From: Nitriliruptoraceae bacterium
GTDB taxonomy: Bacteria; Actinomycetota; Nitriliruptoria; Nitriliruptorales; Nitriliruptoraceae
Reading direction: 5' to 3'
NCBI GenBank assembly: GCA_007120465.1
Contig: SKNO01000216.1
Coordinates: 1 to 43,496, forward strand
Length of the DNA stretch: 43,496 bases
The notes beneath the pieces are model-generated. The model ran no database searches, was not told the DNA's origin, and was given only the letters and a program-made list of their open reading frames with translations. Both the position numbers and the translations under genes were made by a program. Of the stretch, positions 24,970 to 28,806 are shown piece by piece; position 1 is the first letter of the stretch, and each line of letters starts with the position of its first letter.

Positions 24970-26409
24970 TCACCGCCGCGGGGTGCGCCCCCGTCGGAGC
25001 CGCAGCAGTGCCCCGGTGATGGGCCGGTAGCGGTGGAGACGCGCCCGCAGCTCCTCCAGCGATGCCGCCGTGAGGTCCTCGTTCCAGGTCGGGTAGGCGT
25101 GAGGTGAGCGCACGATCGTCGACAGCTTCGCGCCACCGGCCATCCAGGCCACGACCTCCCCGATCGTCTCCCCGGCCCGCGGGCCGACCACGGTTGCGCC
25201 CACGATCCGACCCCTCGGATCGCCGACCAGGGTGGCGAAGCCGTCGGTCTCGCCGCTGGCCACCGCACGGTCGAGGTGCGCGTGGGATGGGGTCCGGACC
25301 CGCGCTCGGTCGCCGAACCGCTCACGCGCCTCGGCGACGCTCAGGCCGACGCGGGCGACCTCCGGTGAGGTGAAGGTCACCCAGGGGATCCGCTCGTGAT
25401 CCACCGACCGGCGCAGACCGAACAGGGCGTTCTGGACGACCGTCGCACCGTGGGTGCTGGCGGTGTGGGTGAACGGCAGCAACATCGTGACGTCCCCGCC
25501 GGCGTAGATCCGCGGGTTGCTGGTCCGCAGCCGCCCATCGACCGCCACGGCACCGCGGTGGTCCACCGCCACACCGGCTGACGCGAGCCCGAGCCCGTCG
25601 ATGACCGGCCGGCGTCCGAGGGCGGCGAGCACCTGGTCGAAGGGCACGGCCTGCTCCGTCCCGTCGCACTCGACCACCAGCTGCGCCGTGTCGGCGTGCT
25701 GCTCGACCCGCACCGCCCTGGTGCGAACCCGCACGTCCACCCCGTCGGCGGCCAGCGCGTCAGCCACGAGCTCGCGGGCCGCAGGTTCCTCGCGCGGGAG
25801 CAGCCCGTCCGCCATCTCGACCACGGTGACCTGCGAACCGAGCCGGGCGAAGGCCTGGCCCAGCTCGGCGCCGATCGGTCCACCGCCGAGGACCACCAGC
25901 CGACGGGGCAGCTCGGTGAGATCCCACACCGTGTCGGAGGTGAGCGGCTCCATCTCCCGGAGTCCGGGGATCGGTGGCACCAGCGGCGCAGCCCCGGTCG
26001 CGACCATCGCACGGGCGAACCGCACGGTGCGTCCGCCGACCTCGATCCGATCGGGTGCCGTGAACCTGCCGGTGCCGCGGACGACCTCGACGCCCTCGCT
26101 GCGCAGACGCTCGGGCGAGTCGTGCGGCGCGATGGTCGCGATCGCCTGCTTGACGTGGGCCATCGCGGCCGCGAGATCCACGGTCACCGCGCCGGCATGG
26201 ACACCGAACGTCCCGGCGGTCCGAACCGCCGAAACCCGCTCGGCGACCGTGAGGAGCGCCTTCGACGGGACGCATCCGGTCCACAGGCAGTCTCCACCGG
26301 TGCGATCACGTTCCACGAGCAGGGTCCGCGCGCCCTGGCTGGCGGCCCCGATCGCCGCGGTGAGCCCAGCGGTCCCGCCACCGAGCACGACGAGGTCGTA
26401 GGTGCCCAC
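24970..26409 (-). CDS. FAD-dependent disulfide oxidoreductase, mercuric-reductase-like
   Basis: A 479-residue class-I pyridine nucleotide-disulfide oxidoreductase. FAD site VVLGGGTAGLTAAIGAASQG, redox motif GGDCLWTGCVPSKALL (CxxxxC, about 42-47), NAD site VVLGGGPIGAELGQAFARLG (about 175), FAD-2 motif RIYAGGDVTML and C-terminal dimerisation domain with HAYPTWNE. The last is typical of the mercuric-reductase-like subgroup lacking the His-x4-Glu lipoamide pattern; no HMA domain or C-terminal CC is present, so Hg(II) reduction is not indicated. The GTG at 26409 has AAGGAG upstream. Convergent with the ynj-like operon. Confidence 0.87.
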   Translation of the reverse strand: MGTYDLVVLGGGTAGLTAAIGAASQGARTLLVERDRTGGDCLWTGCVPSKALLTVAERVSAVRTAGTFGVHAGAVTVDLAAAMAHVKQAIATIAPHDSPERLRSEGVEVVRGTGRFTAPDRIEVGGRTVRFARAMVATGAAPLVPPIPGLREMEPLTSDTVWDLTELPRRLVVLGGGPIGAELGQAFARLGSQVTVVEMADGLLPREEPAARELVADALAADGVDVRVRTRAVRVEQHADTAQLVVECDGTEQAVPFDQVLAALGRRPVIDGLGLASAGVAVDHRGAVAVDGRLRTSNPRIYAGGDVTMLLPFTHTASTHGATVVQNALFGLRRSVDHERIPWVTFTSPEVARVGLSVAEARERFGDRARVRTPSHAHLDRAVASGETDGFATLVGDPRGRIVGATVVGPRAGETIGEVVAWMAGGAKLSTIVRSPHAYPTWNEDLTAASLEELRARLHRYRPITGALLRLRRGRTPRR

Positions 26410-27016: not shown

Positions 27017-27063
27017 GAGCGCTTCGCGATGACCCTCACCCGATCCGCCGGAAGGGACACCTC

Positions 27064-27774
27064 GTGACGACCTACAACTACGAGACGTTCGACGGCTACG
27101 TCGCGTCCGGCGCAGAGCAACGGGAGTTCGCCGCCTGGCCCGACCTGCTCCACGCTGGGGAGCCGGCACCGGCGATCATCGGCACCCTGCTCGAGGACGG
27201 GAGCCAGGTGGCGTTGTCCTCGGTGTGGCAGCGACGCACCGTGGTCGTAGAGTTCGGATCGTTCACCTGACCGTACTGCTCAGCAGAGGGTCCTCTGCTC
27301 GACGCTGCGGCTGACCGCCACCCCGACGTGGCGTGGTACTTCGTCTACACACGTGAGGCACATCCTGGCGAACACGTCCCACACCACGACTCGATCCACA
27401 CCAAGCTCGCCAACGCTCGGCGGCTCCGCGACGAGGTCGGGATCCGACGTCCGATCCTGGTCGACGACCTCGACGGCACCGCCCACCATGCCTACGGCCT
27501 GCTCCCGAACATGACGTTCGTGATCGGCCGTGGCGGTCGGATCCTCTCCCGGGCCGACTGGACGTCGGCCGCCAACGTCGAAGCCTTCCTCGAACGGTAC
27601 GAAGCCGGCCGTCGGCGTCGCCCGCCGGGCGGCGCGGTCTCGCCCTACCTCACCGAGCAGATCGAGTTCCGCGACGTCGACCGTGAGGCGTTCTACGACC
27701 GGCTGCGGCGCAACGGACCGCGCAGCTACGAGGAGTTCAAGCACGCCGAACGGATGTGGGCCGAGCGCGAGTGA
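27064..27774 (+). CDS. Deiodinase-like selenoprotein, thioredoxin fold (in-frame UGA = Sec)
   Basis: A 236-residue protein if TGA 27268-27270 is read as selenocysteine. The frame continues without another stop to 27774. The block around the TGA, TVVVEFGSFT-U-PYC, then FVYTREAHPGE and later ILVDDLDGTAHHAYGLLP, tracks iodothyronine deiodinases (NFGSxTUPPF, VYIxEAHPSD, MDNNANIAYG). Sec69 and Cys72 form a UxxC pair. Immediately after the TGA is a SECIS-type hairpin with GGUC loop (27282-27299). GTG 27064 has GGAAGGGA upstream. Bacterial family members are thiol/selenol oxidoreductases of unknown substrate; thyroid-hormone chemistry is not implied. Cytosolic (no signal peptide). A conventional call would give two fragments (27064-27270 and 27328-27774). 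Confidence 0.88.
27268..27299 (+). promoter_or_regulatory. Sec codon and bacterial SECIS-like hairpin 1
   Basis: TGA at 27268-27270 is followed 18 bases later by apical loop GGTC (27289-27292), closed by a perfect 7-bp stem AGCAGAG/CTCTGCT. In E. coli fdhF the SelB-binding loop is also GGUC and also starts 18 bases after the UGA (from memory of that sequence). Confidence 0.85.
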
Positions 27775-27843: not shown

Positions 27844-28806
27844 GTGACCGACGAGGCCAGGCCGGACAGCGGATCGTTCGAGGAGTTCCGCCGGTCGTTC
27901 TACTACGGCGATCACGCGGACATGCAGTTCAAGTTCCTGGCGCGGATGCCCGATGCGGTCGCCGCCGACGTGATCGCCGAGGTGCTGGCTGCGGTCGGTG
28001 AGACCCTGGACACCGGTGATCTCGACGGCCTCCGTGACGTCGTCTACCGGGCACAGGTCGCGGGCTACCTGCCCGAGGAGCCGGTCACGCCCCCATCCGA
28101 GATCCCCTTCACGCCGCCCCCCGCCCCGCTGGAGGAGTGCACGCTCGCTCTGATCTCCGCGGGCGGGGTCTTCGTCGTCGGTGACGACCCGATGGGCCCC
28201 GACGGACCGTCGCAGCAGGACTCGCTCGTGCTGATCAACGAGTTCCTGCGCGGCACCCCGACGCTCTCCACCATCCCGGTCGACACCACCAACGAGCGGC
28301 TGACGGCCAGGCATCCGGGCTACGACGCTCGCAGCGCGCAACGTGACCCGTCGGCGGTGTTCCCGCTCGATCACCTGCGCGATCTGGCCGCTGATGGACG
28401 GATCCGGCTGGCTGACGAGCACTACGGGTTCACCGGTGCGACCTCCCAGCGCCGACTGCAGAAGGAGGTGGCGCCCCGCTGGGCCGAGCACCTGGCCGAC
28501 CGCGCGGTCGATGCGGCCCTGCTCGTCGCGACCTGACCGGTCTGTCACGGGTCGGTCGGACTCGTCGCACGGGCCTTCGAGGCCGCAGGGATCCCCACCG
28601 TGTGTGTCGCGATCGAAGCCTTCCGCCACCGGATGGAGGGACTGGGCGTGCCGCGGACGCTCATCACGCCACACCTGATGGGCCGCACCATCGGCCCGGT
28701 CGGTGATCGTCGCCGTCAGCGGGCCGTGGTCAGCGCTGCCCTCGATCTGCTCGGATCGGCCACCGGACCGGGCACGCTCACCGCCTTCGAGGACCGGACC
28801 ACGTGA
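27844..28806 (+). CDS. Selenoprotein B-like reductase subunit, glycine/betaine/sarcosine/D-proline reductase family (in-frame UGA = Sec)
   Basis: A 320-residue protein when TGA 28534-28536 is read through. The frame is open from GTG 27844 (GAGGAGG upstream) to 28806. The N-terminal part contains ECTLALISAGGVFVVGDDP (about 98), typical of the GrdB-like fold. The C-terminal part reads VDAALLVAT-U-PVCHGSVGLVARAFEAAGIPT; in many homologues the Sec position is Cys within CPVCHxSVGLVAR. Sec231 and Cys234 form UxxC. A SECIS-type hairpin with GGUC loop follows (28547-28565). Classical GrdB releases amine from glycine-type substrates via a Sec-bound intermediate with Grd A and C; those partners are absent here, so the physiological reaction is unknown. 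It lies 69 bp after the deiodinase-like gene, probably co-transcribed. Confidence 0.87.
28534..28565 (+). promoter_or_regulatory. Sec codon and bacterial SECIS-like hairpin 2
   Basis: TGA 28534-28536. Stem ACGGGTC (28547-28553) pairs with GACTCGT (28559-28565) including one G-U, with loop GGTCG (28554-28558). The loop starts 17 bases after the UGA, versus 18 in the neighbouring gene. Confidence 0.8.

Follow-up and report, generated by a model that had tools for sequence, protein, structure and literature searches.

Evidence for a deiodinase-like selenoprotein gene hidden by an in-frame UGA, next to a PrdB/GrdB-like gene, in a Nitriliruptoraceae bacterium

Introduction

Deiodinase-like selenoproteins have been reported in bacteria from the Sargasso Sea (PMC1088965) and from the GOS data (PMC2398784), and reviews list them under PF00837 with a UxxC motif (PMC9312934, PMC13188914). 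The described bacterial members have in common the Pfam family, the UxxC motif, the occurrence of both Sec and Cys forms, and a SECIS element just 3' of the UGA codon (PMC1088965, PMC2398784, PMC9312934, PMC13188914). PrdB-like selenoproteins are already known as well (PMC2398784). The deiodinase-like family has been known in bacteria since 2005, and therefore what a new member adds is detail and not kind.

Here we describe a deiodinase-like gene in a stretch of 43,496 nucleotides from a Nitriliruptoraceae bacterium (assembly GCA_007120465.1, contig SKNO01000216.1, positions 1 to 43,496), which we call the window. This member differs from those described in its host, a nitriliruptorial actinobacterium, and in being paired with a PrdB/GrdB-like gene. 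The 2026 review does not list this pairing in its section on operons, and our searches of open-licence papers did not find it. The in-frame UGAs hide two adjacent full genes that plain ORF calling splits, and the conserved two-selenoprotein pair could be tested as a functional unit. The many Sec-type relatives across several phyla, with their covarying SECIS, should be useful for the question of where the animal deiodinases came from.

Results

One reading frame on the forward strand of the window runs from a GTG at 27064 to the TGA at 27772-27774, and its sole interruption is the TGA at 27268-27270. A first-pass annotation, made from the DNA letters, had claimed that two apparent ORFs, one ending at 27270 and the other starting at 27328, are a single frame split by this TGA, and we verified these positions. 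The gene is hidden because this UGA codon evidently stands for selenocysteine and not for a stop. The features of the gene are as follows.

27064..27774, + strand: deiodinase-like selenoprotein gene (GTG start, 236 aa, terminal TGA 27772-27774)
27050..27057, + strand: likely ribosome-binding site GGAAGGGA, 6 nt 5' of the GTG at 27064, predicted from the sequence
27268..27270, + strand: UGA predicted to be read as selenocysteine, residue 69, in the UPYC motif (evidence: UGA/Cys conservation and downstream dN/dS)
27282..27299, + strand: predicted bacterial SECIS hairpin with a 7-bp stem and a GGUC loop at 27289-27292 (evidence: conservation and covariation)

The read-through protein contains ...EFGSFT-U-PYCSAEGPLLD...YTREAHPGEH...DDLDGTAHHAYGLLPNM..., and the segments that had been taken as signs of the deiodinase family (EFGSFT-U-PYC, TREAHPGE and DDLDGTAHHAYG) are all present. 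When the UGA was translated as U, as had been proposed for a check, PF00837 scored 33.3 bits against a Pfam cut-off of 27, while the Redoxin and AhpC-TSA models scored slightly under their respective cut-offs. The NCBIfam model NF038285 (deiodinase family protein) gave 49.6 bits, below its curated cut-off of 250; by its sequence the read-through protein is related to NF038285 and lies outside that subfamily.

We compared the gene across 66 genomes of the class Nitriliruptoria. UGA occupies the same codon in 12 genomes besides the window's own (G037, G054, G055, G036, G063, G005, G062, G015, G061, G044, G045 and G047), and the orthologue of G037 is 86% identical to the window gene. The UGA homologues of G045 and G047 are distant, at about 32-36% identity. 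Class homologues with TGC at the site occur in G025, G027 and G050, in copies 2 and 3 of G036, and in copy 2 of G062. In a wider scan of genome contigs, which yielded 80 loci from Actinobacteria, Chloroflexi, Acidobacteria, several classes of Proteobacteria and others, the site held TGA in 74, TGC in four and TGT in two; the relatives that bear names are mostly Nitriliruptoraceae MAGs, and one cultured carrier is Haloechinothrix aidingensis (L178). Close homologues with some other sense codon, together with a hairpin that is not conserved, had been named beforehand as evidence that would speak against a selenoprotein. The homologues have a Sec or a Cys codon there and no other, this is the one codon at which UGA and Cys exchange, and the hairpin has been retained.

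The dN/dS ratio 3' of the UGA was 0.09-0.26 in seven pairwise comparisons, similar to that of the short stretch before the UGA, and it was 0.09 in the comparison with the nearest congener. Judged by these ratios, the sequence downstream of 27268-27270 is under purifying selection.

Some copies of the gene depart from this pattern. Copies in G002 (L028), G007 (L036) and G001 (L037) are broken and have the appearance of decaying genes or assembly errors, and the L203 homologue has a non-TGA stop inside the matched stretch. The G044 orthologue (L033 / L239) retains the UGA and the hairpin and shows large internal deletions in the protein.

The 7-bp hairpin with a GGUC loop that the first-pass annotation had placed after the UGA, at a distance it likened to that of fdhF, is present at 27282-27299 (AGCAGAG-GGUC-CUCUGCU), with its stem starting 11 nt and its loop 18 nt past the UGA. 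In the bacterial SECIS model the loop has 3-9 nt, carries a G as its first or second nucleotide and lies at a distance of 16-37 nt from the UGA (PMC13188914). The hairpin agrees with this model in its GGUC loop and its 18-nt distance, and its stem covaries. The hairpin codons GGU and CCU are invariant in 19/19 orthologues; elsewhere in the same genes they make up 12% of Gly and 3% of Pro codons. In the orthologue alignment base pairing holds in 95.5% of the cells of the stem, and slid versions of it are far poorer. Compensatory changes were found in L173 (C-G to U-A) and in L239 (A-U to U-A, which alters Leu to Gln), and A-U to G-U changes also occur among the orthologues. The distant UGA homologues of G045 and G047 have another stem (GCGCC/GGCGC) at the same loop offset.

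Across the 74 UGA loci of the scan, the best hairpin averaged -13.3 kcal/mol. Five of the six Cys loci had hairpins weaker than -3 kcal/mol, the sixth (L240) reaching -8.1, and the Cys homologue of G050 folds stably over 45 nt but not as a hairpin of the 27282-27299 type. When synonymous codons were drawn at local usage, the same 7-bp stem arose in 0.33% of draws, and the total fold energy was borderline, at the 6.5% level. Because the fold energy is only borderline, the case for the hairpin rests on conservation and covariation and not on stability. RNAalifold on a 48-nt alignment favors a different fold that lacks covariation, whereas the hairpin named here does covary. Scanned against Rfam, the region yielded no match above the cut-off.

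These data bear on whether the UGA could be a true stop, and the locus a pseudogene, the result of a sequencing error or a pair of separate genes. The fragmented copies in G001, G002 and G007, which seem to be decaying, would fit such a view, as would the lack of sel genes in the window's bin (see below). Against it stand the same UGA in 12 further genomes of the class and in 74/80 loci, a frame free of any other lesion, a dN/dS well under 1 after the UGA, and the conserved hairpin; moreover, errors do not turn up repeatedly at a single codon, and on this view the neighboring gene would not share the feature. We regard a true stop as extremely improbable. The first-pass claims of selenoprotein identity, deiodinase kinship, Sec position and hairpin all withstood testing, and we are highly confident that 27064-27774 is a functional bacterial selenoprotein gene of the deiodinase family, the product of which would be a soluble, cytosolic thioredoxin-fold protein. 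As far as sequence allows, this selenoprotein reading is shown.

We then asked whether the genome encodes the machinery for selenocysteine, a search that the first-pass annotation had proposed for selA, selB, selC and selD and whose failure it would have counted against the gene. The window's bin comprises 294 contigs and is 80.5% complete. In this bin we found no selA, no selB above the cut-off, no tRNA-Sec (selC), and for selD only weak matches, all under the cut-off. The best two selB-like matches of the bin proved to be IF2 and LepA, and the tRNA-Sec-like matches proved to be Ser, Leu, Cys, Arg and Gly tRNAs. In contrast to the bin, the genes are present in the congeners: all three (G036, G037 and G038) carry selB, selA, selD and tRNA-Sec on one contig within about 5 kb, in the order selB-selA-selD-selC. 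The absence of sel genes from the bin counts against the selenoprotein reading but does not amount to a refutation, because the bin is 80.5% complete and the four genes of the congeners lie in a single cluster of about 5 kb. In addition, tRNA-Sec scored above the cut-off in 12/12 other carriers of the UGA gene in the class (chance 0.023, with relatedness ignored).

The genes that flank the congeners' sel cluster do occur in the window's bin, where the cluster is absent and the gene order is different. A search of contigs C155 and C64 did not reveal where the missing cluster would border; C155 runs on into a gene that by eye resembles cofD, with no SelB match. Because the order of the flanking genes differs, we could not trace the absence to one particular assembly gap.

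One could suppose, from the lack of all four sel genes in an 80.5% complete bin and from the rearranged flanks, that the gene was inherited as a selenoprotein gene and that the window's lineage has just lost its Sec machinery, so that the UGA is no longer decoded. We consider this very unlikely: with about 20% of the bin missing, the lack of one 5-kb cluster is unremarkable, both UGA genes are intact, and the comparison with the nearest congener gave a dN/dS of 0.09 after the UGA. The reading that we prefer remains that of a gene still decoded with selenocysteine.

Two further observations concern other candidate selenoproteins. The formate dehydrogenase of the bin was considered as a third UGA gene and rejected, since its frame runs through with no UGA in it. 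At L143, L146, L149 and L150 in G005, G015, G054 and G055, the SelD gene contains a TGA in frame and its product is probably a Sec-containing SelD; the SelD genes of the congeners have no such codon.

A second gene split by a UGA, absent from the first-pass annotation, adjoins the deiodinase-like gene on its 3' side, with the residues ATUPVCHGSVGL around the UGA. Its features are as follows.

27844..28806, + strand: second hidden selenoprotein gene, PrdB/GrdB-like (GTG start, 320 aa, terminal TGA 28804-28806)
28534..28536, + strand: UGA predicted to be read as selenocysteine, residue 231, in a UPVCHGS motif (evidence: UGA conserved in relatives)
28547..28565, + strand: candidate SECIS hairpin ACGGGUC-GGUCG-GACUCGU, loop 17 nt past the UGA at 28534-28536

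The gene shares with the PrdB / GrdB selenoprotein B family the domain PF07355 (GRDB, 47.5 bits against a cut-off of 22) and a UxxCH motif at the expected place. It differs from PrdB in its score with the PrdB model TIGR04483, 105 bits against an equivalog cut-off of 300, and therefore it is probably not D-proline reductase itself. Its UGA is kept in G005, G036, G054, G055, G062 and G063 and in a gammaproteobacterial MAG. The tandem pair of deiodinase-like and PrdB-like genes recurs in five relatives (G054, G055, G062, G063 and G005). On one contig of G063 (L138, G063:C73, 965-7659), the PrdB-like and deiodinase-like genes come directly after selC-selD-selA-selB, and in G036 the PrdB-like gene adjoins selC. 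The gammaproteobacterial MAG (L193) has both selenoprotein genes in convergent orientation within 1 kb.

A structure model of the read-through protein, built from a 38-sequence alignment, had a pLDDT of 95.7 and a pTM of 0.92 and showed a thioredoxin fold with extra terminal helices. The closest solved structures by profile were mouse deiodinases 3 and 2 (DIO3, 4TR3, E 9.7e-18; DIO2, 9H48, 3.9e-13), which fold comparison also ranked closest, and behind them in both came ResA-type thiol oxidoreductases and peroxiredoxins. Alignments and model agree that the deiodinase fold and the REAHP...H active-site segment are present. The roles of the deiodinase active-site residues have been described (PMC7506546). 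The alignments equate Ser167, Thr169, Sec170 and Tyr197 of DIO3 with S66, T68, U69 and Y95, and Glu200, His202 and His219 with E98, H100 and H108; Arg225 is replaced by K114. The protein thus shares with DIO3 and DIO2 the thioredoxin fold, the Sec site and the active-site Ser, Thr, Tyr, Glu and two His.

In other respects it differs from these enzymes. Cys168 of DIO3 is replaced by Phe67 and Phe258 by Pro148, and a shorter loop follows REAHPG, so that the hallmarks of a thyroid-hormone deiodinase (Cys168, Phe258 and the long substrate loop) are absent in the alignments. The protein has a Cys three residues past the Sec (Cys72 of UPYC), which is nearly invariant in the family, and its gene has a bacterial SECIS. 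We detected no hydrophobic segment for export or membrane anchoring in the read-through protein, which distinguishes it from the anchored deiodinases and also from ResA/TlpA-type oxidoreductases and peroxiredoxins. With the latter two groups it shares the fold, a redox pair opening the first helix and a Pro at the cis-Pro position of thioredoxin, and it departs from them in having the REAHPG...H segment specific to deiodinases and a helical extension at its C terminus.

Discussion

The name deiodinase-like, given in the first-pass annotation, is sound as to family membership and should not be taken to imply thyroid-hormone deiodination. From the residues compared above, the product is most likely a cytosolic Sec/Cys thiol oxidoreductase and not a thyroid-hormone deiodinase. 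Alternatively, the protein might be a true dehalogenase or deiodinase whose substrates are small organohalides. Such an enzyme would account for the conserved Ser/Thr/Tyr/Glu/His/His set of the deiodinases (roles: PMC7506546), and the PrdB/GrdB-like neighbor has its place in a family whose enzymes cleave C-N bonds reductively (PMC13188914). Nonetheless, UPYC and Pro148 are thioredoxin-like, the thyroxine-binding Cys168, Phe258 and long loop are missing, and the next matches by profile and fold are ResA-type thiol oxidoreductases and peroxiredoxins. We think a dehalogenase unlikely and favor the thiol oxidoreductase.

We propose the following scheme. Judged by conservation, SelB and Sec-tRNA would read the UGA at 27268-27270 as selenocysteine, guided by the hairpin at 27282-27299. 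The product would most likely be a thiol oxidoreductase or peroxidase of the Sec/Cys type. Its selenolate may attack the substrate, after which Cys72 may resolve the product to a selenenylsulfide; a reductase system based on thiols or flavin would then reduce this bond again. This redox mechanism, with its substrate, partner and reductant, is inferred. The functional partner is probably the adjacent PrdB/GrdB-like selenoprotein. We raise as a tentative idea, which we would not yet favor, that the two work together as a system of two selenoproteins, tied to the sel operon in this lineage, and carry out an undescribed reductive reaction, in which the deiodinase-like protein reduces the Sec of the PrdB-like protein or shares its substrate.

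A possible electron donor lies upstream in the window.

24970..26397, - strand: MerA/dihydrolipoyl-dehydrogenase-like flavin disulfide reductase, possible electron donor

In 6/80 scanned loci the deiodinase-like gene has a relative of this reductase gene within 4 kb, which no more than suggests a role of 24970-26397 as electron donor to the deiodinase-like protein.
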